The notes beneath the pieces are model-generated. The model saw only the letters and a program-made list of their open reading frames with translations, made no database searches and was not told where the DNA came from. The position numbers and the translations under genes were made by a program. 64,000 nt of DNA from Sphingomonas sp. S2-65 (GTDB taxonomy: Bacteria; Pseudomonadota; Alphaproteobacteria; Sphingomonadales; Sphingomonadaceae), in the NCBI RefSeq assembly GCF_021513175.1, contig NZ_CP090953.1:2290501-2354500 (forward strand), in the 5' to 3' direction. Shown in pieces: positions 1 through 11,945 of this stretch (within the stretch, counting starts at the first letter, position 1; every line of letters starts with the position of its first letter).

Positions 1-129
1 GGGCGTGTGACGACCGGCGAGGAGAATGTGCGCCTGCTCGAGCTGGTCAATGTCGAGGCCTGGTGCACCGCCTGGTCATCGCCGTGGCGTGGCGGCGAGT
101 CCGCCGCAGGCTCGGGCGCAACCGAATGA
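1..129 (+). CDS. C-terminal end of an upstream gene, possibly the lasso cyclase
   Basis: The first 42 codons form an open frame that enters from outside the window and ends in TGA at 127-129. The tail contains ENVRLLELVNVEAWCTAW, a Leu/Val/Trp-rich helix like the C-terminus of asparagine-synthetase-like proteins. The next genes are lasso precursors, so the lasso cyclase (which activates the ring Asp/Glu with ATP) is a reasonable guess, but 42 residues are too few to prove it. The stop overlaps an in-frame ATG (126-128) of the first precursor frame, which suggests one transcript and possible translational coupling. It could instead be the end of another maturation gene. Confidence 0.4.
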   Translation, partial: GRVTTGEENVRLLELVNVEAWCTAWSSPWRGGESAAGSGATE

Positions 130-149: not shown

Positions 150-275
150 ATGCGTACCGAAGACATGACTGTGATCGAGCTTGGAACGGCAAGCGTTGCG
201 ACGCGCGGCAGCGTGATGGGTATCGCCGACGGCGAATCGGGCAAGATGCTGCGATCCGGCCTGCGCGACGACTGA
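150..275 (+). CDS. Lasso peptide precursor 1
   Basis: A 41-residue peptide. The leader (residues 1-19) carries VIELGTASVATR, matching the LG-x-x-S-x-x-T-(K/R) end of sphingomonad and caulobacter lasso leaders, with the essential Thr at position -2. The predicted core starts at Gly20 (GSVMGIADGES...) and is 22 residues long. Gly1 of the core and Asp8 would make an 8-residue macrolactam ring, leaving a 14-residue tail ending RDD. The start at 150 is preceded by AGGAG at a good distance; in-frame ATGs at 126 and 129 are alternatives. The neighbouring lasso isopeptidase and TonB receptor support the call. Ring size is inferred from the acid position. Confidence 0.82.
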   Translation: MRTEDMTVIELGTASVATRGSVMGIADGESGKMLRSGLRDD

Positions 276-281
276 AACGAC

Positions 282-309
282 GCGAGCGGGTGCCAAGGCA
301 CCCGCTCGC
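282..309 (+). terminator. Strong hairpin between the two lasso precursors
   Basis: A perfect 13-bp stem (282-294 pairing with 297-309) with a 2-base AA loop, starting 6 bases after the stop codon of precursor 1. There is no T-run after it, so it is more likely a partial terminator or a 3' stabiliser of the precursor mRNA than a complete intrinsic terminator. It would let precursor 1 be made in excess over what follows. Confidence 0.6.
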
Positions 310-368
310 CATACGTCGGGTTGCGAACGGCGCGCCACCGCACGCCCCGTCAAGACCGGAGAAGATCG

Positions 369-494
369 ATGCGTTGCAAAGACGGTAAGGTGACCGAGCT
401 CGGGACGATCAGCACCAGCACGCGCGGATCCGCTGTCGGCATTGCAGAAAATGAAAGCGGCAGAATGCCTGGACCTGGGCGCAGTGGCGACTGA
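369..494 (+). CDS. Lasso peptide precursor 2
   Basis: A 41-residue paralogue of precursor 1 with the same layout. The leader ends TELGTISTSTR, again with Thr at -2 and Arg at -1. The core begins GSAVGIAENESG at Gly20 and is 22 residues long. Glu8 of the core is the likely ring acceptor in place of Asp8 of precursor 1. The two cores share the pattern GS-x-x-GIA-(D/E)-x-ESG-(K/R)-M but differ in their tails; this one has GPGRSGD with an extra Pro pair. A GGAGAAG ribosome site precedes the ATG. The stop lies 22 bases from the convergent isopeptidase stop. Confidence 0.8.
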   Translation: MRCKDGKVTELGTISTSTRGSAVGIAENESGRMPGPGRSGD

Positions 495-516: not shown

Positions 517-2631
517 TCAAGGCGCGGCGGGCGCTGGAGCAGAAGCTTTTAGAGTGACAGATAGCGCTTGGCGCATCGCCTCCCATCGCCCGACTTCGCC
601 GGGGCGATCGGCCGCCTTCATGCCGTTTAGCCAATAGTCGAACCAATCGATCGAGCGGGCATATACCGCGAGGCGATGCGCAGGCTGCCACTTCACGTGA
701 TGCTCGCCTGGAAAAACATAGAGGTCGATCGGGCGGCCCAGCTCACGAAGCGCCGTAAAGCTCTGGAGGGAGCTCCAATGCTCATCGTCCGCCACCTGCG
801 CCAGGATCGGCGCATGGATATCCCTGGCATTTGGCGAAATGGCGATCTGGCGCCAGAGTGCCCTCGCTGACTCGCTGTCGTCGATAGTCTTGGGATAGCC
901 CATGAAATAGAAATGCTGCGCCGCACCGGGACCGACCCGCACCGGCAGGCCGGTGTCCCAGCAGCAGCTGCTCATTGCGAATGCGGAAAACAATTTGCTG
1001 TGGAGCAGCGCGAAGCCCGCAGTGGAGGCACCATCGCTCAGGCCGGTGATGCCGATGCGGGCTGGATCCGCGATGCCGCGTTCGATCGCGATGCGCACGG
1101 CCGCCTCCAATGACTCGAGCACGCTGCGGCGATCGGCGAAGTCCTTGAGGTTGATCCTGTCGGCCTCGAGGAAGTCTGTCGTGGAACGAAGCCCCACCGA
1201 GTCGGGCCTGTCGAAGCTCAGCACGGCGAAGCTGCGGTTGGCGAATGCCTGGATTGGATAGTCGTCCCCAGTCCCGCCCCGCAGAAAGCCGCGCGAAGTA
1301 TATTGCACGACCACCAGTGGATACCGCTTACCGGGTTCGTACCCCACAGGCAGGACGAGGTCAGCAAAGGACTCGAGACCGAAGCTGTTGCGGGATCGCA
1401 GACGCTCGACGCGACCGAGCCGGAGATTTGCAAACTCCGGATTCGGATCGAACATTATTTCCCGGCGGCCGCTCGCAGGATCGAGGCGTTCGAGCCGGCG
1501 CGGCTGAAGCGCCCCCTCGCGAAGGCAGGTAAGCGCCTCTCCGGTCGGCACGCACCCGAGGAACAGGTCGTCGGTAACGTAGAGGCGCGATGGGCTGCGT
1601 GCACCGGGCTTCCACTCGTAGATGGCGGTAGCGCTGTTTCCCCACCCTTCCCGTCGCATGAAACGAACCTTGCCGCCCGCCCACCAGGGGTAGCTCGCAT
1701 CCGCGCATTCCGGCGCATTGCAAAGCTCCGTTCGGCCGCCCGCCGTGACGCCAAGCCGTCCTCGTGATGCATAGAGCGTCCTGGCTGGCGGCTGCACCCA
1801 AGCCCTTGCTCCCGAAGTCGTTGCCGCCTCGGTCCAGCTGCCCTCCCGCATAGACGATTTGTCGAGCAGCGCGGCCTCGTCGGGCGTGGCTGCGCGCGTC
1901 GTCATGCTTGCCAGGTCGAGGGCCCAGGTTGCCCAGTCGATGGGTCCGGGCGGGAACGGCCGGTTGCTCGAGGCCGGGGAGAAGCGGCCGTCGTATCGGA
2001 ACCCCGAGAGCCCTTCCTGGTCGATGTCGGCAAGCGCGGTGCGCAGCCCGGGCCTGGTTGCGTAAATGATGCGCCGCCCATCGGCGCTGATCCGGAAATC
2101 GTCGATGTCGTCGTCGCTGCTGGTGATGGCCTTGCTCGCGCTGCCGTCCGCCTGGGCCCGCCAGAGCTGGACGGCTCCCCGGTCGCGGCGGCGATAGACG
2201 ATGAAGCTGCCATCGGGAGACCATCGCGGCGTGATCGGATCGGCAACACCGGCCGGGAAATTGGCCATGCCGCGGAAATCCAGGGTCGGCCGGATGAAGT
2301 CGCCGCCTCGGTCGACCACGACCGCCTCACCGCCCGGTCGAAGGACAACCACCACCATCGCGAGGCAATAGCCATTGGCGGCGGGATCGCCGCGCCGCAG
2401 TTGGAAGGCTGCATGCGTGCCATCCGGCGACACCGAAAATAGCCCGGCATACTGCTGGGTGGGGTCCGCTGGCCCAATGTCGCGCAGCTGCACCAGGTCC
2501 GTCGGGGTCAGGGGGCGACGGGCTTGGGGCGCCGCAGTGGTTGCGGGCAAGAGGGCGGCGCAGTCGGGAGCTGCCCAGGCCGCCGCAGGCACGATAAGCA
2601 GCGTGGCGGCGATTGCGATCCGGATCACCAT
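517..2631 (-). CDS. atxE2: Lasso peptide isopeptidase (AtxE2-like, S9 family)
   Basis: A 704-residue secreted serine hydrolase with a signal peptide (about 1-20, cleaved after AWA), a beta-propeller-like region (about 50-400) and a C-terminal alpha/beta-hydrolase domain (about 410-690). The nucleophile is Ser532 in GLSDGAS; Asp615 or Asp616 (VADDEHW) and His644 or His645 (GEHHVKW) would complete the triad. Enzymes of this family cleave the isopeptide bond that closes the lasso ring, linearising the peptide in the periplasm. The gene overlaps the end of the TonB receptor gene by 7 bases and converges on the two lasso precursors, the arrangement of astexin-type loci. Ordinary prolyl oligopeptidase activity cannot be excluded, but the context makes the isopeptidase role likely. 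Confidence 0.85.
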   Translation of the reverse strand: MVIRIAIAATLLIVPAAAWAAPDCAALLPATTAAPQARRPLTPTDLVQLRDIGPADPTQQYAGLFSVSPDGTHAAFQLRRGDPAANGYCLAMVVVVLRPGGEAVVVDRGGDFIRPTLDFRGMANFPAGVADPITPRWSPDGSFIVYRRRDRGAVQLWRAQADGSASKAITSSDDDIDDFRISADGRRIIYATRPGLRTALADIDQEGLSGFRYDGRFSPASSNRPFPPGPIDWATWALDLASMTTRAATPDEAALLDKSSMREGSWTEAATTSGARAWVQPPARTLYASRGRLGVTAGGRTELCNAPECADASYPWWAGGKVRFMRREGWGNSATAIYEWKPGARSPSRLYVTDDLFLGCVPTGEALTCLREGALQPRRLERLDPASGRREIMFDPNPEFANLRLGRVERLRSRNSFGLESFADLVLPVGYEPGKRYPLVVVQYTSRGFLRGGTGDDYPIQAFANRSFAVLSFDRPDSVGLRSTTDFLEADRINLKDFADRRSVLESLEAAVRIAIERGIADPARIGITGLSDGASTAGFALLHSKLFSAFAMSSCCWDTGLPVRVGPGAAQHFYFMGYPKTIDDSESARALWRQIAISPNARDIHAPILAQVADDEHWSSLQSFTALRELGRPIDLYVFPGEHHVKWQPAHRLAVYARSIDWFDYWLNGMKAADRPGEVGRWEAMRQALSVTLKASAPAPAAP

Positions 2632-5222
2632 TGCTTGGTCACCGAGAAGCTGACGAACCGGCCGATCGGCGATTGGTTGGTCGAGTCAAAGGGAATGGAC
2701 GAGGGGTCCGAATTCCGGATCGGGTCGGGCTCCTCGTTTAGCAGGTTCTGCAGGTTCAGCCGAAGCTCGAGGTTGCTCAGCATGCCGTGCCCGCCAGTCG
2801 GGCGGAAAGCCCCGCTCAGATCCAGCGTCGTGAAGCCACCGATCCGGGCCGTCGTGGGAAGGCGGTTGTCGAGCGTGCCCTCGGCATAATTGAGCGCTGC
2901 CGAGAGTTGCACCGCCGAGGTCGCCCAGCTCGCCGAGCCGCGGGCGCGAAACTTGGGCGGCGTGAAAATCAGGCCGGACCTGCGTTCGTAGGGGAGGTCG
3001 GCGGCCGGCTGTCGCGCGGCGTCGAGATAGCTGGCCGACCCGGAAAGCTGGAGGCGGCTATCCGCTCCGAGGTCTGCGCTATAGTCGATGCCGAGGTCGA
3101 CGCCGCGGATATGTTCGCGCGCCGTGTTGCGCAGGCTGGAATCGACAATGGCCGCGACCTGCGCCGGGTCGTACGGTTGTCCACTTTGGTTATCCAGACC
3201 GAGCGCCGCCGTCGCAATCATCGCCTCCAGCTGGCTCGCGCTGGGAGAATGCAGCACGAAGTCTGAGGCCACGGGGTTGGTCAGCGCGGAAAGTATGTCG
3301 CTGATCGGCGAGGCGATCCGGCCGCGATAGTCGATGTCGAAATAGCTCGCCTCGATGCGGAGCCCGTCGACGAAGCTGGGCTTGTACTCGATCGAAAGAG
3401 TCGAGCTGGTCGCACGCTCGGAGCGAAGGTCGGGATTGCCGCCGCCGACCAGCAGCACGGTCGATCCTGCAGGAAGGGGTGGAGCGGGTTGCGGCTCGAA
3501 CAGGTCGGCGCTGAGCAGGACGGCTTCCCGGGTCTGGTTGACCTGTTGCAGCGTCGGGATCTTGAACGATCGGCCCCAGCTATACTTGAGGATGATGTCG
3601 GGATGCGGCGCATAGACCAAGCCAAGCTTGGGCGTCGCGACCGCGTCGATTCCGGCATAGCTCTCGTAGCGGACGGCGGCGCTCAAGCGCAGCACCTCGA
3701 CCAGCGGCATGCGATTGGGAGCGCCGACCAGGGGCACCGACAGCTCACCATAACCGAACACGCTTTCCCGCCGCTCCACCGCGTCGCGAGTGACCCGCGT
3801 GACACCGCCGCTCGTCGAGCGGACATTGAAGGCAAGCCGGAAGCGCCGGTAGCCGCCGCCTAAGGCAAGGCGCGCATCGCCGCCGGGCAGGCGGAGGAGC
3901 GGGCCTTCGGCGCTTGCCTCGAAGTTGGTGAGGTAATCGTCATAGGCCGAGCGACCGATCATCACCGCTCCGTTCGTGTAGCGCTTGGCGGTGCTGACGG
4001 TGGAGCTCTCTCCATGAGTGGCCTCGACTGTCGCCTCCCAGCCGCTGCCGGGGCGCAGATGAAGCGAGGGCGTGACAGCGTAGGAGCGCACCACGGGCAG
4101 GCTCAGCTGTCCGAAGTAGGTGACGGGCGCGGTCACCGAGAAGGCGTTAGCCTTGCGCGAGCGGCGGTCGGCAAGCTGCGCGTCCAGCTCCAACGAGGCC
4201 CAGCTGGCGAGGTCCTGATGGCCGGCGAGCACACCGCTCACCTGCCGGCTCCCGGTGGCGATCATCTGCGTAGGGTGGAGGCTGCGCGAATAGGACCGCT
4301 CGTCGGCGTATATGGGCGTCGCCTTGCTGTAGTCGAGCGCGGCCATGAAGCCGCCGCCGGCCCAGCGCGCGCCCCCGACCCCTGAATATTGCTGCTGGAC
4401 GTTGCCGCCTTCAGTGGAGGCGCCGACGCGGGCGCCGGTCTGGAGGCCGTCATAGTCGCGGCGAAGGATGACGTTGGCGACGCCGCCGACGGCGTCCGAG
4501 CCGTAAAGCGCGGATGCTCCGTCGGTGATCACCTCGATGCGCTCCAGGGCTGCCAAGGGGATGGTGGAGATGTCGACGCCCTGATTGACGGCGTCGTAAG
4601 GAAGGCGGTGACCATTGATGAGCGTCAACGTTGCGTCCGAGCCCAACCCCCTGAGGTTGAGCGTCGTCGAGTTATTGATGTTATTGTATCCGCCCTGGTC
4701 ACCGCCCCCCGCGACCCCGGGGTTTTGCCCTCCGGTGTAATTCTGCGGGATGATCCGCGAAACGCTTGCAAGGTCCGGAACGCCTTGCTCCTCCAGCCCC
4801 CGCCGCGTCATCACGATGACCGGCGAGGGGCTGGCGGCACCGCGAATGCGCGTGCCGGTTACGGTGATCGCCGCTTCCTCGGCGCTGTCCTGCGGTGTTC
4901 GGGGGCGCACCCGTATGAACAGAGCCCCAGCCTGCTCCTCGACGACCAGGCCGCTGTCACCGATAGCGAGGCGTACTGCCTGCTCGACCGTAAAGCTGCC
5001 CCGGACGGCGGGCGACCGCCTGCCGCGCACATCCTCGTCCGCGAACAGGATCTCGCGGCGACCCGCGCGGGCGATCTCGCGCAGCGTCGTCGCAAGCCCC
5101 TGCGCAGGCAGATCGAAGGTCACGGTGGCTTCCTGCGCGTGGGCGGGCGAGACGACCATGCCTGCAGCGGATGCAGTCGCAGCCAGCAGCGCTGCACAAA
5201 GTGCCTTTCTCGAGATCGTCAT
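2625..5222 (-). CDS. TonB-dependent receptor with STN domain, lasso-locus type
   Basis: An 865-residue outer-membrane receptor. The start at 5222 is chosen because GGGAGG precedes it and a clean signal peptide follows (MTISRKALCAALLAATASA, ending AHA); the open frame runs further upstream without a ribosome site. After the signal come an STN (secretin/TonB short N-terminal) domain (about 30-105), a plug domain (VPDLASVSRIIPQNYTGG, then RIEVITDGASALYGSDAVGG) and a 22-stranded-type barrel ending in FVSFSVTKQW with the terminal aromatic residue. STN domains usually signal to an anti-sigma factor, but no FecI/FecR pair is seen here. Its operon with the isopeptidase suggests uptake of the lasso peptide or its linear product. 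Confidence 0.88.
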   Translation of the reverse strand: MTISRKALCAALLAATASAAGMVVSPAHAQEATVTFDLPAQGLATTLREIARAGRREILFADEDVRGRRSPAVRGSFTVEQAVRLAIGDSGLVVEEQAGALFIRVRPRTPQDSAEEAAITVTGTRIRGAASPSPVIVMTRRGLEEQGVPDLASVSRIIPQNYTGGQNPGVAGGGDQGGYNNINNSTTLNLRGLGSDATLTLINGHRLPYDAVNQGVDISTIPLAALERIEVITDGASALYGSDAVGGVANVILRRDYDGLQTGARVGASTEGGNVQQQYSGVGGARWAGGGFMAALDYSKATPIYADERSYSRSLHPTQMIATGSRQVSGVLAGHQDLASWASLELDAQLADRRSRKANAFSVTAPVTYFGQLSLPVVRSYAVTPSLHLRPGSGWEATVEATHGESSTVSTAKRYTNGAVMIGRSAYDDYLTNFEASAEGPLLRLPGGDARLALGGGYRRFRLAFNVRSTSGGVTRVTRDAVERRESVFGYGELSVPLVGAPNRMPLVEVLRLSAAVRYESYAGIDAVATPKLGLVYAPHPDIILKYSWGRSFKIPTLQQVNQTREAVLLSADLFEPQPAPPLPAGSTVLLVGGGNPDLRSERATSSTLSIEYKPSFVDGLRIEASYFDIDYRGRIASPISDILSALTNPVASDFVLHSPSASQLEAMIATAALGLDNQSGQPYDPAQVAAIVDSSLRNTAREHIRGVDLGIDYSADLGADSRLQLSGSASYLDAARQPAADLPYERRSGLIFTPPKFRARGSASWATSAVQLSAALNYAEGTLDNRLPTTARIGGFTTLDLSGAFRPTGGHGMLSNLELRLNLQNLLNEEPDPIRNSDPSSIPFDSTNQSPIGRFVSFSVTKQW

Positions 5223-5433
5223 TCTTTCCCTCCCATCGCCCGTTGCTCGGGCGTTGAGGGGTTGACGCGGCACATCGCGGACTACGGGGCCGCACGCGAA
5301 AATATTTTTCGAAGGCACCGCCAGCAGGCCGCCCACGGCGATCCCGCTCCCACGGGAGATGCTGCAACGGCCTGGACTTCCTCGACTCACCCGCCGCCAG
5401 CCGGCCGCCTGCTTGACGACCACAAGTAACTCG

Positions 5434-5478: not shown

Positions 5479-6210
5479 ATGAGGCAGCCCGCTGTCATTG
5501 CCGACCTGCGTTCCCGCATCGCCGCCATCGAAGGCGTCGGACGGACTCGCGAAGCCGCGCCCTTCGGCGTCCCGGCGATCGACCGGCACTTGCCCGGAGG
5601 CGGCCTCGTGGCGGGCGCGCTTCACGAAGTCACCGGCAGCCCCGAGCTTTGCGACGACGCGGCAGCAACGATCTTCCTCGCCGGCATCCTCGCCCGGGTC
5701 GAGGGGCCGGTCTTCTGGTGCCTGAGATGGCGCGACCTGTTCGCGCCGGCGCTGGACCTGGCCGGACTGCACCCCGACCGGGTTATCCATGTCGAGGCAG
5801 GCAGCGACACCAACGTATTGCTGGCGATGGAGGAGTGCCTGCGCCATCCCGGCCTTGCCGGGGTCGTCGGCGAGGTCGCCAGGCTTTCGACCACCGCCTC
5901 CAAGCGGCTCCAGCTCGCGGCCGAAAGCTCGGGGAGCACCGCCTTCGTGTTCCGCCGCGCAGCGCCTATCGATGGGCAGGGCGAGGGCACCGCCGCCGTC
6001 ACGCGCTGGCGGGTCCTCGCCGCGCCCAGCATTCCCCTGGGCATTCCCAGCCTCGGCCGGCCGCGCTGGGAAGTGCAGCTCGAGCGCGTCCGCGGTGGCG
6101 AGCCGAAATCCTGGATCGTGGAGGCCTGCGATGCGCAGGGTCGTCTCGCTCTACCTGCCCAATTGGTCGACCGACCGGCTGCGGCGGAAGAGCGGCGCCT
6201 CGCGAGCTGA
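5479..6210 (+). CDS. imuA: ImuA, RecA-like SOS mutagenesis protein
   Basis: A 243-residue protein of the ImuA/SulA-like group. It has a degenerate RecA-type fold (HLPGGGLVAGALHEVTG near 40-55 replaces a Walker A; FWCLRWRDLF and GVVGEVARLSTTASKRLQLAAE follow). In the ImuA-ImuB-DnaE2 mutasome, ImuA supports error-prone translesion synthesis with ImuB and the C-family polymerase. It is the first gene after a LexA box, and its end overlaps the imuB start by 80 bases. Length and order match the typical alphaproteobacterial cassette. Confidence 0.92.
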   Translation: MRQPAVIADLRSRIAAIEGVGRTREAAPFGVPAIDRHLPGGGLVAGALHEVTGSPELCDDAAATIFLAGILARVEGPVFWCLRWRDLFAPALDLAGLHPDRVIHVEAGSDTNVLLAMEECLRHPGLAGVVGEVARLSTTASKRLQLAAESSGSTAFVFRRAAPIDGQGEGTAAVTRWRVLAAPSIPLGIPSLGRPRWEVQLERVRGGEPKSWIVEACDAQGRLALPAQLVDRPAAAEERRLAS

Positions 6211-7675
6211 GGACCTCCCAGCTCCCGACGAGCCGCTCGTCACCGCACTGCCGGACCATGGCCGCAGGATCCTCGCCGCGGTGGATGCGCCGGCGCGCGC
6301 GCTCGGGCTGCATCCCGGCATGACCGTCACCAAAGCGCGGAGCCTCGCGCCCGGGCTGACCGTGATCGATGCCGATCCCGAGGCCGACCTCGCCGCGCTC
6401 CGGCGCCTGGCGCTGTGGTGCGGGCGCTACTCGCCCTTCGCCGCCCCCGATCCGCCCAACGGCATCTGGATCGACGTGACCGGCTGCGCGCGATTGTTCG
6501 GCAGCGAGCGGGCACTGCTCAAGGATCTGCACCGCCGCGTCGCCGCCGCGGGCTATGCCCTCCAGATCGCCGCCGCCGACACGCCTGGCTGCGCGCATGC
6601 GGTCGCGCGTCATGTCCCCGCGGGCCGGCCGGTGACGATCAATCCGGGCGACCAGCGCAAGGCGATGACGCTGCTGCCGATCGCCGCGCTCCGGCTCGAA
6701 CCGAGCATCGTCGAGAGCCTGCGCAAGCTCGGGTTCGACAGGATCGAACAGCTGATCGAGACGCCGCGCGGCCCGCTGGCGCGCCGGTTCGGCCGCATCC
6801 TCCATCAACGGCTCGACCAGGCGCTGGGCTTCGCTCCCGAGGCGATCGAGCCGGTCTTTCCGCAGCACGTGCCGCACTCCCGGCTAGGGCTGGTCGAGCC
6901 GATCGCCACCCCCGAAGCTTTCGCCCGGGTGATCGGCGACCTTGTTGCGGATCTCGGTGCCCAGCTCGTCCGGATGGGCCATGGCGCCCGTCGGCTCGAT
7001 TGCTATTTCCACCGCGTCGACGGGCACGCGCAGGCAATCCGCATCGGCACCGCGGCCCCGAGCCGCGACGTCGCGCACCTGGCCAAGCTGCTGGCCGCCA
7101 GGATCGAACAGGTCGAACCGGGCCTCGGCGTCGAGGCGATGACGCTGGTCGCGCCACTGACCGAGGCGCTCGGATCCAGCCAGAGCGATCTCGCCCGGGC
7201 CGCCAGATCCGAAGCCGATCTCGGCGGGCTTATCGACGCGCTCGCCAATCGGTTCGGACAGGCCAGCCTGCATCGCGCCGCACCCCAGCCCGGTATGCCT
7301 GAACGTTCCGTGGCGGTGGTGCCGCCGCTCACGCACGCGGTGGGCAGGCGCTGGCCCGACGACCTGCCCCGCCCGGCCCGGCTCCTCGACCCACCCCAGG
7401 AAATCCAGGTCACCGCGATGCTGCCCGACCATCCGCCGGCGATGTTCGTGTGGCGACGCAAGCGCTACCGCGTAACCCAGGCCGATGGCCCCGAGCGCCT
7501 TCACGGCGAATGGTGGCGCGAGGCGGGACACGAGGCGCGCACGCCCTATGCGGTGCGCGACTATTTCCAGGTCGAGGTCGAGGGCGGCGGCCGATACTGG
7601 CTGTTCCGCCTCGGCGACGGCGAGCGCATGGCGACTGGCCCGATGCGCTGGTTCATACATGGCGCATTTGCGTGA
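6131..7675 (+). CDS. imuB: ImuB, catalytically inactive Y-family polymerase-like protein
   Basis: 514 residues beginning MRRVVSLYLPNWSTDRLRR, the usual ImuB start, which is why 6131 was chosen over the longer open frame. It has a Y-family polymerase fold (palm region GIWIDVTGCARLFG, helix-hairpin-helix around LRKLGFDRIEQL). The acidic SIDEA motif of active Y-family enzymes is missing, as is normal for ImuB. ImuB acts as the hub of the mutasome, linking ImuA, DnaE2 and the beta clamp. The gene overlaps imuA and is damage-inducible through the upstream LexA box. Confidence 0.92.
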   Translation: MRRVVSLYLPNWSTDRLRRKSGASRAEDLPAPDEPLVTALPDHGRRILAAVDAPARALGLHPGMTVTKARSLAPGLTVIDADPEADLAALRRLALWCGRYSPFAAPDPPNGIWIDVTGCARLFGSERALLKDLHRRVAAAGYALQIAAADTPGCAHAVARHVPAGRPVTINPGDQRKAMTLLPIAALRLEPSIVESLRKLGFDRIEQLIETPRGPLARRFGRILHQRLDQALGFAPEAIEPVFPQHVPHSRLGLVEPIATPEAFARVIGDLVADLGAQLVRMGHGARRLDCYFHRVDGHAQAIRIGTAAPSRDVAHLAKLLAARIEQVEPGLGVEAMTLVAPLTEALGSSQSDLARAARSEADLGGLIDALANRFGQASLHRAAPQPGMPERSVAVVPPLTHAVGRRWPDDLPRPARLLDPPQEIQVTAMLPDHPPAMFVWRRKRYRVTQADGPERLHGEWWREAGHEARTPYAVRDYFQVEVEGGGRYWLFRLGDGERMATGPMRWFIHGAFA

Positions 7676-7899
7676 GAGGAGCATCGCCGCCGATTATCTC
7701 GATCGGCGTGGCGCCGCCGGTCGGCCGGAATGCGCCCCGCATCTTACTCTGGGCGCAAGGTTGATCAGCGGTTTATGGCAGGCAGGCTACAAAGCGTGGA
7801 ACGTAACCTTCTGGATATACGCCTGACCGCATCGCTGATCACCGAACGAACGGCTACAGCGACCGAGAAACTTTACGCTCGCGCCGCGAACGAAGCGCC

Positions 7900-8112
7900 A
7901 TGCCGGCAGACCGGATCGTCTCGATCGCCCTGCTCACGCAGCGCGAAGCCGATCGGTTGGCGGGAACGCTCCAGCATTGCTACCCCGTCTCCGACGGGCA
8001 CAGCTTCGAGCACCTCCTCGCGCAACTGGACCAGATCGAGATCGAGCCGTCGCGAGATAGCGTGGTAATTCGGGTGCCGGCCGGTCCACCGAGTGAGGAC
8101 GAGCGGGGCTAG
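7900..8112 (+). CDS. Small hypothetical protein in the SOS cassette
   Basis: A 70-residue acidic protein (MPADRIVSIALLTQREADRL...) with no recognised domain, signal or membrane segment. It lies between imuB and the LexA-boxed gene at 8166, on the same strand. The ribosome site is weak (ACGAAG). The sequence reads like a real soluble protein, with alternating helix-like stretches, but similarity evidence is lacking. The 224 bases before it (7676-7899) show no other gene. Confidence 0.5.
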   Translation: MPADRIVSIALLTQREADRLAGTLQHCYPVSDGHSFEHLLAQLDQIEIEPSRDSVVIRVPAGPPSEDERG

Positions 8113-8124
8113 GCGTCTCACATG

Positions 8125-8139
8125 GTTCCCTTTATGTTC
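8125..8139 (+). promoter_or_regulatory. Second LexA box, before the gene at 8166
   Basis: A perfect GTTC-CCTTTAT-GTTC direct repeat with 7-base spacing, 27 bases upstream of the start at 8166. It has the same half-sites and spacing as the alphaproteobacterial LexA operator. It may control the small gene and, by readthrough, dnaE2. Confidence 0.82.
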
Positions 8140-8165
8140 TTCTTTTGCGACTCGGAGAACTGGAA

Positions 8166-8540
8166 ATGTCCATCACGCTCACCCCTTCGGCGGACGCCGC
8201 CAGCCTGCGTGTAAGCGGGGACATCGAGGCCAAGCTGACCATCCCCGCTGATCCGTCGTTCGAGTTCGGCGGTGAGAGCTACATGCATGCTTATTATATC
8301 GCCTTGTCCGATGGCTCGCTGATCAAGGCCGTGCGCCATGACGATCCCAATTGGGAAGTGATCATCGAGGGCGCCGCGACGATCGAGCCCGGTGCCGACG
8401 GCGAGACTCTCACCGTGCAATGGGGTATCGAGTGGCTTACGCTCGCGACCAATTGCAACGCCAGCGCGGTCGCGCAGAAGTCGACCCGCAACCTGCCGCT
8501 GTTTCATCCGGAACTCGGAAATTTCAGCGCGATCGTCTGA
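8166..8540 (+). CDS. Conserved-looking hypothetical protein, probably SOS-controlled
   Basis: A 124-residue protein (MSITLTPSADAASLRVSGDIEAKL...). It is rich in short beta-strand-like segments and has a central ESYMHAYYIALSDGSLIKAV and a repeated WEVIIEG / VQWGIEWLTL pattern. No signal peptide or transmembrane helix. The start at 8166 is set by GGAG ten bases upstream; an in-frame upstream start would add seven residues. Its own LexA box and its place just before dnaE2 suggest a damage-response role, but the function is unknown. Confidence 0.75.
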   Translation: MSITLTPSADAASLRVSGDIEAKLTIPADPSFEFGGESYMHAYYIALSDGSLIKAVRHDDPNWEVIIEGAATIEPGADGETLTVQWGIEWLTLATNCNASAVAQKSTRNLPLFHPELGNFSAIV

Positions 8541-8600
8541 TCCCGAGCCCGCGTCACCATCGATATCGTCGGTTGATGGACGGCTCTCCGGGGCAGACAA

Positions 8601-11600
8601 ATGGGCTGGCGCAACTGGCCACATTCCATGGTTGAGCATAACGCGACTTATGCCGAGCTGCAGGTCACGACGCATTTCAGCTTTCTGCGCGGCGCTTCCT
8701 CGCCCGAGGAGCTGTTCGCCGCCGCCGCACTGCTCGGGCTCCCCGCGCTAGGGGTCGTCGATCGCAACTCGGTCGCCGGCATCGTACGCGCCTGGGACGC
8801 GCAAAAGGCCACCGGCGTGCGGGCGATCACCGGCTCGCGTCTCGACCTCGTCGACGGAACCGCCCTGCTCGTCTATCCGACCGACCGCGCGGCTTATGGC
8901 CGGCTTTGCCGGCTGCTGTCGGTGGGCAAGGCCCGCGCCGGCAAGGGCGCCTGCCATCTCGACTGGAACGATGTCGAGGAATGGAATGACGGGCTGATCG
9001 GCATATTGGTACCCGACCGGGCCGATGCCGTCGTGCAATCGGCGCTTGCTCGCACCGGCCGTATCTTCGGCGACCGCTCCTATCTCGCGCTGTCGCTGCG
9101 CCGCCGTCCGCGCGATGCCGTCCGGCTGCGCGACCTGGCCGCGATGGCCGCCGCAGCGCGGGTCGCAACGGTCGCGACCGGGGACGTGCTCTACCATGCT
9201 CCCGACCGAAGGCTGCTGCAGGACGTGGTCACCTGCATCCGCCAGAAATGCACGATCGACGAACTCGGCGAACGCCGCGAGCAGGTCGCGGACCGGCACC
9301 TGAAGTCGGCTGCGGAGATGGAGCGGCTGTTCCGGCGCAATCTCGGCGACACCCGGCCGGTCGCGCGCAGCCTCGAGATCGCGCAGCGCTGCAGCTTCGA
9401 TCTCGAGCAGCTCAAATATCAATATCCCGACGAGATCCGGGATGCCGCCCGCACGCCGCAACAGGAGCTTGAGCGACTGACCTGGGAAAGAGCGCCCGAG
9501 CGTTATCCGGATGGGGTCACGGCCAAGGTCCGCGCCCAGATCGAGCACGAGCTCCGGCTTATCAGTCAACTCGACTACGCCCCCTACTTCCTGACGGTCT
9601 ATTCAATCGTGAACTTCGCCCGCTCCAAGGACATCCTCTGTCAGGGCCGCGGCTCGGCCGCCAACTCGGCGGTCTGCTTCTGCCTAGGCGTCACCTCGAT
9701 CGACCCGGTGCGCTCGGAGCTATTGTTCGAGCGCTTCGTCTCGGCGGAGCGGCGCGAGCCCCCCGACATCGACGTCGATTTCGAGCATGAGCGGCGCGAG
9801 GAGGTGATCCAGTGGATCTACGAAACCTATGGCCGGACCCGCTCCGCGCTGACCGCAGTCGTGACCCGCTACCGCGCGCGCGGCGCGGTCCGCGAGGTAG
9901 GCAAGGCATTGGGCGTCAGCGAAGACATGACCGCGGGCCTCTCCAGCCAGGTCTGGGGCTGGAGCCGGGAGGGCGTCGAGGAACGCCATGCGGAGGAGCT
10001 CAACCTCGACATGGGTGATCGCCGGCTCGCGCTGACGCTCGAGCTCGCGCGCCTGCTGATCAACACGCCGCGGCACCTCTCCCAGCATCCCGGCGGCTTC
10101 GTCCTTACCCGCGACCGGCTCGACGAGCTCGTGCCAGTCGAGCCGGCGGCGATGGACGACCGGCAGGTTATCGAATGGGACAAGGACGATATCGACGCTT
10201 TGGGCTTCATGAAGGTGGATGTGCTGGGGCTGGGGATGCTCAGCTGCATGCGGCGTGGCTTCGAGTTCCTCGCCGCCGACAAGGGCGTGAAAGTCGACCT
10301 GGCCACGATCCCGGCCGAGGATCCCGCCACCTATGCGATGATCCGCAAGGCCGACACGCTCGGCGTCTTTCAGATCGAGAGCCGGGCCCAGATGGCGATG
10401 CTGCCGAGGATCAACCCTCGGACCTTCTACGACCTGGTGATCCAGGTCGCGATCGTGCGGCCCGGCCCGATCCAGGGCGACATGGTCCATCCCTATCTAC
10501 GGCGCCGCGAAGGCAGGGAGGCGGTCACCTATCCCAAGGAGGAGTTGCGCCGGGTGCTCGAGAAGACGCTCGGCGTGCCGCTCTTCCAGGAGCAGGCAAT
10601 GCGCGTTGCGATCGAGTGCGCCGGGTTCACCGCGTCCGAGGCCGACCTGCTTCGCCGCGCCATGGCGACCTTCAAGCTCACCGGCGGGGTCAGCCATTTC
10701 CGCGACAAGCTGATCGGCGGCATGGTCGCGCGCGGCTACGCGCATGCCTTTGCCGAGAAGACCTTCAAGCAGATCGAGGGCTTCGGAAGCTATGGCTTTC
10801 CCGAGAGCCATGCCGCCAGCTTCGCGCTGATCGCCTATGCGTCGAGCTGGATGAAATGCCATCATCCCGATGCGTTCTGCGCCGCATTGCTCAACGCCCA
10901 GCCCATGGGCTTCTATGCGCCCGCGCAGATCGTCCGCGACGCGCGCGAGCACGGCGTCGAGGTCCGTCCCGTCGACGTCAACGCGAGCCGCTGGGACTGT
11001 ACGCTCGAAGACACGACCGGCCGCTACAAGGCGGTGCGTCTGGGCCTTCGGATGGTGCGCGACCTGTCCAATGCCGATGCCGCCGCAATCGTCGGTGCGC
11101 GCGCGGACCAGCCCTACCGTAGCGTCGAGGAGATCCAGCGGCGTGCCGAGATCGGAGCCGGCGCGCTCAACCGTATTGGCGAGGCCGACGGGTTCGGGTC
11201 GCTGGAGCAGACCCGCCGCACGGGGCTTTGGCAGGTCAAGGGGCTGGCGGACACGCCCTTGCCGCTGTTCGCCGCGGCCGACCGGCGCGACCAAGCGTGG
11301 CGCGACGAAGCGGACGAGCCTGAGGTCACGCTCGTGCCGATGGGTGAAGGCCAGGAAGTGGTCGAGGACTATCGCGCAACCTCCTTGTCGCTGCGGGCGC
11401 ATCCGCTCGCCTTCCTCCGCGACGAGTTGTCCGCCCGCAAGATCCGGCCATGCTCGGAGACGCGCACGATGAAGGACGGGCGCTGGATCAACCTGGCCGG
11501 TCTCGTGCTGGTTCGCCAGAAGCCCGGCTCGGCCAAGGGCGTGATGTTCATCACCATCGAGGATGAGACCGACATTGCCAACCTGGTGGTGTGGACCAAC

Positions 11601-11945
11601 GTCTTCGAGAAGCACCGGCGCGTTGTGCTCGGTGCGTCCATGCTCGGCGTGCGAGGCAAGGTGCAGCGCGAGGGTGAAGTCATCCACGTCGTCGTCGAGC
11701 GGCTCGACGATCTCTCGCCGCTGCTCGCGAGCGTCGGTTCGCGCCAGGATGTCGCCGATGTCTACCGCGTCGCCCGCGCCGATATCGTCAAGCACGGCAT
11801 GGGCCCCGATCCACGTGTCCCGGCCGAGCGGTCGCTGGGCAAGGTGCCGCGCGACATCTACATTCCCGATCTCAGGCTTGGCTCGGGCATTGTCCCCGGG
11901 CAGCCGACCGAAGGCATCAAGATCAAGCCTCGGGACTTCCGATGA
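8601..11945 (+). CDS. dnaE2: Error-prone DNA polymerase DnaE2
   Basis: 1114 residues, the normal DnaE2 length. An N-terminal PHP domain ([23 protein letters not shown]) is followed by the C-family palm, with the catalytic Asp motif [14 protein letters not shown] (near 390) and the second Asp region around [19 protein letters not shown]. Helix-hairpin-helix and OB-fold segments follow ([27 protein letters not shown]). It copies past lesions as the polymerase of the ImuA-ImuB-DnaE2 mutasome and raises mutation after DNA damage. Start 8601 is taken; an ATG at 8628 ([12 protein letters not shown]) is an alternative. It has no LexA box of its own, so it is probably expressed from the boxes upstream. 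Confidence 0.95.

Follow-up and report, generated by a model that had tools for sequence, protein, structure and literature searches.

A probable three-precursor lasso peptide cluster in Sphingomonas sp. S2-65 with two precursor genes after the cyclase gene

The window analysed here, a stretch of 64,000 nucleotides covering bases 2290501-2354500 of the 3.80-Mb genome of Sphingomonas sp. S2-65 in a single contig, carries near its first base two short open reading frames (ORFs) that an earlier note, made from the letters of the window, took to be a pair of unannotated lasso peptide precursors. Are these ORFs true precursors, and if so, to what kind of cluster do they belong? Both are present as described, each encoding 41 residues followed by a stop codon, and the leader end and core pattern attributed to them hold, with Thr at position -2 in both, Asp8 in the core GSVMGIADGESGKMLRSGLRDD of the first (A1) and Glu8 in the core GSAVGIAENESGRMPGPGRSGD of the second (A2). 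The isopeptidase and receptor operon that they were said to face was borne out at window positions 517-5222, where a gene (E) scoring 795 bits against the Atxe2-family isopeptidase model NF033523 (cut-off 400) adjoins a gene for a TonB-dependent receptor. The proposed search upstream of the window located the genes of both processing enzymes, B and C, directly 5' of the ORFs, and precursors lacking these enzymes were thereby ruled out. The description as a pair was right in taking both ORFs for precursors but wrong in number: they are part of a trio, the third precursor gene (A0) lying 5' of B.

Within a 17-kb stretch around the precursor ORFs (L002, in which a position minus 10501 gives the window position), the gene order is ECF-FecR-A0-B-C-A1-A2 on the forward strand, followed by E and the TonB receptor gene facing them on the reverse strand (Table 1). 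B is the sole PF13471 match in the genome, and a PDB search with B gave no useful match (best E 0.83). C is over the Pfam cut-off for PF00733 and lies beside B and the precursors; its matches to the NCBIfam cyclase models are far under their cut-offs. When E was aligned to the AtxE2 structure 5txc, the motifs GLSDGA and EHHVKWQ lined up. The listed receptor ORF extends to 5423, and we set its start at 5222, at an ATG common to relatives; its STN domain scores 25.5 bits, under the cut-off of 28.4. Since A1 begins 20 bases past C and A2 93 bases past A1, a single A0-B-C-A1-A2 transcript would be the simplest reading.

Table 1. Genes and elements of the lasso cluster; plain positions refer to the window.
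Feature	Position	Strand	Evidence
ECF sigma factor	L002 6079-6618, 5' of window	+	PF08281 45.5 bits
FecR-type anti-sigma factor	L002 6615-7694, 5' of window	+	PF04773 62.5 bits
A0, lasso precursor, core GVTPGTADLDFGRQIKSGLSDD, Asp8	L002 8018-8143, 5' of window	+	PF24178 42.6 bits
B, leader peptidase	L002 8202-8852, 5' of window	+	PF13471 87.4 bits; NF033537 (lasso B2 model) 85.6, cut-off 33
C, cyclase, asparagine-synthetase-like, 593 aa	L002 8849-10630; last 129 bases = window 1..129	+	PF00733 87.6 bits
A1, lasso precursor, core GSVMGIADGESGKMLRSGLRDD, ring acid Asp8	150..275	+	leave-out profile E 8.6e-12; PF24178 34.1 bits
12-bp hairpin directly 3' of A1	282..309	+	stretch z -3.5; in 8/8 subclade loci
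A2, lasso precursor, core GSAVGIAENESGRMPGPGRSGD, ring acid Glu8, perhaps decaying	369..494	+	leave-out profile E 7.2e-5
E, lasso peptide isopeptidase, 704 aa	517..2631	-	NF033523 795 bits; AtxE2 structure 5txc E 5e-138
TonB-dependent receptor	2625..5222 (about)	-	PF00593 127.2, PF07715 64.0 bits
ECF-type promoter-like element ATTT-N10-CCCCGTAG, 5' of receptor gene	5282..5303	-	conserved in aligned loci

A profile was built from 90 non-redundant precursors of other loci, leaving out the window's genome and the known precursors encoded after C (post-C precursors), and was searched against 1291 window fragments. It matched both A1 and A2 at the E-values given in Table 1; the third-best match in the window had an E-value of 0.7, and the best match in the reversed window one of 1.6. 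Against the Pfam subterisin model PF24178 (cut-off 27) A0 and A1 passed and A2 failed with 19.7, and all three were under the cut-off of 33 for the NCBIfam benenodin model NF033522 (A0 30.2, A1 28.4, A2 19.8), which one of four A1-type relatives passed (L036, 35.7). Each of the three precursors has Thr at -2, Gly1 and an acid at position 8. The window's A0 and A1 were included and A2 was absent among 60 listed related proteins, 38 of which were examined, and relatives of the A1 type from other genomes carry the database name 'hypothetical protein' (P0024, P0039). A search with A2 alone as query found no protein homologue, and the precursor profile matched no chain in the PDB. We regard both window ORFs as confirmed lasso precursors at the level of sequence, and we hold with good confidence that the whole locus is a three-precursor lasso cluster of the benenodin/subterisin type. 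The A1 gene very probably yields a lasso peptide, and for the A2 gene the chances of this appear about even. The two products had also been expected to differ in tail charge; this contrast was ruled out, as each core has a net charge of zero by K+R-D-E once the acid spent in the ring is left out, and of the proposed difference between the products the one between Asp8 and Glu8 is real.

Background on benenodins and isopeptidases was drawn from five papers (PMC9266682, PMC7549694, PMC11006600, PMC13352647, PMC12670498). The window cluster resembles the benenodin/subterisin type with an Atxe2-family isopeptidase in its leader end, its Gly1 and its acid at position 8, and in its set of B, C, isopeptidase, TonB receptor and sigma/anti-sigma pair. 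It differs in having three precursors, two of them after C, in carrying the sigma/anti-sigma pair 5' of A0 rather than beyond the receptor gene, and, relative to the benenodin family, in precursors that fall short of the NF033522 cut-off. As with caulosegnins I-III, the caulonodins and astexin-2/-3, a proteobacterial enzyme set here accompanies more than one precursor, and the cores differ from those of these peptides (PMC7549694). The sphingocin spg cluster of Sphingomonas BPH also has A, B and C adjoining genes for an isopeptidase and a TonB receptor, with a benenodin-family precursor whose 22-residue core ends in GLSDD; unlike the window cluster, spg as described has one precursor, with a different core (PMC11006600). 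A Tn5 insertion in the spg B gene abolished phenanthrene use (PMC11006600).

By analogy with such systems, we propose that a single set of B, C, isopeptidase and TonB receptor would serve the three precursors. B would remove each leader by cleavage behind Thr(-2)-Arg/Lys(-1). C would close an 8-residue ring by coupling Gly1 with the side-chain acid at position 8, which is Asp in both A0 and A1 and Glu in A2. The predicted products are 22-residue lassos, for which monoisotopic masses (core minus one water) of 2230.087 (A0), 2232.063 (A1) and 2081.955 (A2) were calculated; the ring size is that given for benenodin-1 (PMC13352647). The products would be exported and then taken back via the TonB receptor. 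By way of FecR and the ECF sigma factor, the reimported lassos would induce the operon of receptor and isopeptidase genes, and E would linearise them. A2 is a Glu8 sister of A1 and seems to be disappearing. For all three products we infer processing, ring closure, export, uptake and signalling.

Gene content, order, orthology, hairpins and sequence constraint could be observed directly across related loci. Of 101 genomes sampled from the genus, 26 had an isopeptidase match at E <= 1e-60. Loci were collected as 36 cluster regions from isopeptidase carriers, 79 regions found by scanning named genomes and nine additional stretches, of which four were new. In total 120 loci were compared and 18 without a usable C or E were dropped, which left 102; at least 8 genome clusters had been fetched twice. 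In every one of the 102 loci, among which some clusters are counted twice, C and E face each other. Outside the window's subclade (84 loci), the sigma/anti-sigma pair was found beyond E in 71 loci and was not located in the remaining 13; within the subclade (18 loci, 4 of which are repeats), it is upstream of A-B-C in 16 and was not located in 2. PMC9266682 places this pair downstream of the isopeptidase gene and a GntR-like regulator 5' of the precursor gene. The subclade departs from the downstream order; in the window cluster the pair is present but 5' of A0, and the gene directly 5' of A0 is FecR. The precursor list of the 102-locus set shows none in L178, L181, L182 and L183, whose precursors are found by a separate locus comparison.

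A post-C-type profile that includes the window's A1 and A2 was searched in 295 same-genus genomes and matched 33 of them at E <= 0.001, 8 with a match of at least 76 bits. The strong A1-type gene sits between C and E in 8/8 of these strong carriers. Of the relatives named below, G156 (locus L070) is taken as QA11 and G164 (locus L178) as S. qomolangmaensis; G023 is taken as S. pituitosa. Subclade clusters without a post-C precursor are those of G033, S. mali, S. leidyi and S. glacialis, and loci L181 and L182. In the phylogeny built from C, E and receptor, several deep nodes of which are weak (65 to 94), A1 carriers and non-carriers are intermixed, which suggests one gain of the post-C precursor and several losses. 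A0 and the post-C genes occupy separate parts of the precursor tree, a statement that leaves root-near support aside; support labels near the root may shift on re-rooting, and the groups relied on are the A2 trio and the QA11-G164 pair. We read A0 as a widespread gene and A1, located 3' of C, as encoding a probable second product in one Sphingomonas subclade.

Relics of the post-C genes were sought by blastn of the A1-A2 stretch against 10 C-E gaps. Clear matches in L069, L036, L037 and L178 corresponded to the A1 hairpin, and L178 additionally has an A2 remnant (E 0.001); the best match in L033 had E 0.053, none in L034, L035, L080 and L182 was better than 0.65, and L181 gave none. The C-E gap also holds insertions, namely HipA and HTH genes in L182 (6379-7985) and a Mrr-type restriction endonuclease gene in L178 (7071-8039). 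Outside the subclade, one post-C match fell in a Kordiimonas cluster (L134:12196-12282, reverse strand; E 2.4e-3), where an ORF of 28 aa between C and E has a lasso-like leader. It has Leu, not Gly, after Thr-Lys, and is perhaps an odd precursor, or chance.

A consensus GC hairpin of 10 or 11 pairs, beginning within about 10 bases of the stop codon, follows A0 in 14/14 and A1 in 8/8 subclade loci examined; when folded alone, the A0 hairpin is rearranged or imperfect in L178 and L181. Pairing is kept in 97.4% of cells for A1 and 98.5% for A0, against 34-47% and 25-71%, respectively, in slid controls. Covariation is thin, with two pairs in each hairpin changed on both sides, as many as shuffles reach in 129/500 (A1) and 56/500 (A0) cases. 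No such hairpin was found after any of the A2 copies, of which there are three (window z 0.09 and -0.57, QA11 z 0.39, G164 z -1.1). A table in PMC7549694 has an entry on hairpin removal in the astexin-1 cluster, so hairpins near lasso precursors are not new.

Constraint on the coding sequences was assessed from three comparisons picked from the computed pairs, all of very short genes and with rounded counts. For A1, 7/17 changes between QA11 and G164 were nonsynonymous (P 0.0025 against neutral counts), and 17/27 between the window and QA11 over the first 31 codons (P 0.07), the latter not clearly constrained. For A2, 18/32 changes between the window and QA11 over the first 31 codons were nonsynonymous (P 0.008). 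The ratio of nonsynonymous to synonymous differences ranged over 0.19-0.82 for A1 (21 pairs) as compared with 0.24-0.40 for C (10 pairs). We judge that A1 appears to be functional in at least some members of the subclade, and that A2 seems to have been constrained for a time.

The Asp8/Glu8 pairing of A1 and A2 was set against the other loci. Counted by regular expression over 98 parsed cores, Glu occupies ring position 8 in 9, and 5 of these 9 have no acidic residue at either 7 or 9; of the five, two look misparsed. Locus L100 has an Asp8 precursor beside one whose ring acid is ambiguous because it has Glu at both 8 and 9, and QA11 carries the same Asp8/Glu8 pair as the window, its Glu8 gene being broken. 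The apparent uniqueness of the pair is weakened by these cases, not disproved. A2-type genes were found in three clusters, with an open frame in the window, a frame broken within the core in QA11 and a frame broken within the leader in G164, where a Mrr-type endonuclease gene separates A1 from A2. The three group in the precursor tree (94.7 SH-aLRT, 85 bootstrap) and all have Glu8.

Several rival explanations were weighed. That A1 and A2 are chance reading frames next to a lasso operon is very improbable: the ORFs are short and A2 is under the family cut-offs, but both match the leave-out profile, which together with its reversed-window control led us to reject chance ORFs, and orthologues occupy the same position in other species, so that for A1 the idea is already refuted. 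For A2 another alternative is that it is a pseudogene in progress, its frame open and yet no lasso made from it, with A0 and A1 as the sole producers. A2 may be decaying, because both orthologues found are frame-broken. All three copies lack a hairpin of the A1 type, and A2 has a long branch in the precursor tree, falls below both the Pfam and the NCBIfam cut-offs, and deviates both at the conserved Ile preceding Glu-Leu-Gly and at the GL-x-D-D end. Against this, the window's A2 retains its open frame, a ribosome-site-like sequence upstream, Thr at -2, Gly1 and the acid at 8, and its nonsynonymous changes relative to QA11 are below the neutral expectation. We consider such a pseudogene a serious prospect, at slightly less than even chances.

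A further alternative concerns the role of the products rather than their existence, namely that the post-C precursors make a ligand different from that of A0, for example a receptor competitor or a signal to neighbours. The separate placement of A0 and post-C genes in the precursor tree speaks for it, as does the presence or absence of A1 across relatives while the remaining cluster genes persist. However, separate sequence lineages would also fit simple diversification or drift. In addition, isopeptidases are described in PMC9266682 as opening lassos solely when these are threaded and come from the isopeptidase's own cluster, guided mainly by the loop, and such specificity fits shared handling of all three products. 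We think this alternative unlikely. The fuller proposal is similarly doubtful: that the C-E slot is a subclade-specific second precursor site, where A1, capped by its hairpin, and its Glu8 sister A2 would form a second lasso lineage providing a different ligand, with receptor and isopeptidase common with A0 and the Glu8 product being lost.

With the locus read as a three-precursor cluster of known type, its novelty is a matter of cores and gene order. Multi-precursor clusters with an isopeptidase and a TonB receptor are already published. Literature searches, which were thin on subscription journals, found neither these cores nor precursors placed after C treated in any paper. The A1 and A2 core sequences are likely to be new, and precursors after C together with an upstream sigma pair appear to be features of the subclade, of which we found no description in the literature searched (few subscription journals). 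By itself, the cluster extends a known class by new cores and a variant gene order. Isopeptidase-type lasso peptides are made, apparently taken back and linearised. Three natural candidate ligands for one receptor and isopeptidase, together with relatives that lack one or two of them, form a natural test set for recognition by these two proteins and for whether Asp8 versus Glu8 matters.

Candidate control elements lie on both sides of the cluster. In 12 aligned loci, CCCCGTA occurs 5' of the receptor gene in 12 and CCCCGTAG in 11, and the full ATTT-N10-CCCCGTAG element has a single match in the genome, the one listed in Table 1. We take this element to resemble promoters of FecI-type sigma factors. 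On the 5' side of A0 (L002:7928-7945 and 7982-7995) there are two ATTATAA boxes with a spacing of 11 bases, together with a perfect palindrome, GTCATGGCCATGAC. The palindrome is present in 14/14 subclade loci and the two boxes in 11/14, and palindrome and double box each occur once in the genome. Further upstream, a 211-aa ORF on the reverse strand (L002:5431-6066, 5' of the window) has sigma region 4 only (PF08281, 38.2 bits) and no region 2. It runs opposite to the ECF gene, similar partial matches occur upstream in 8 relatives, and it is perhaps a partner of the ECF factor. At the other end, beside the receptor gene, window positions 5479-11945 (forward strand) hold an ORF without a Pfam match, an impB/mucB/samB polymerase gene and a gene for a second DNA polymerase III alpha subunit, which together are presumably an imuA-imuB-dnaE2 mutagenesis cassette.
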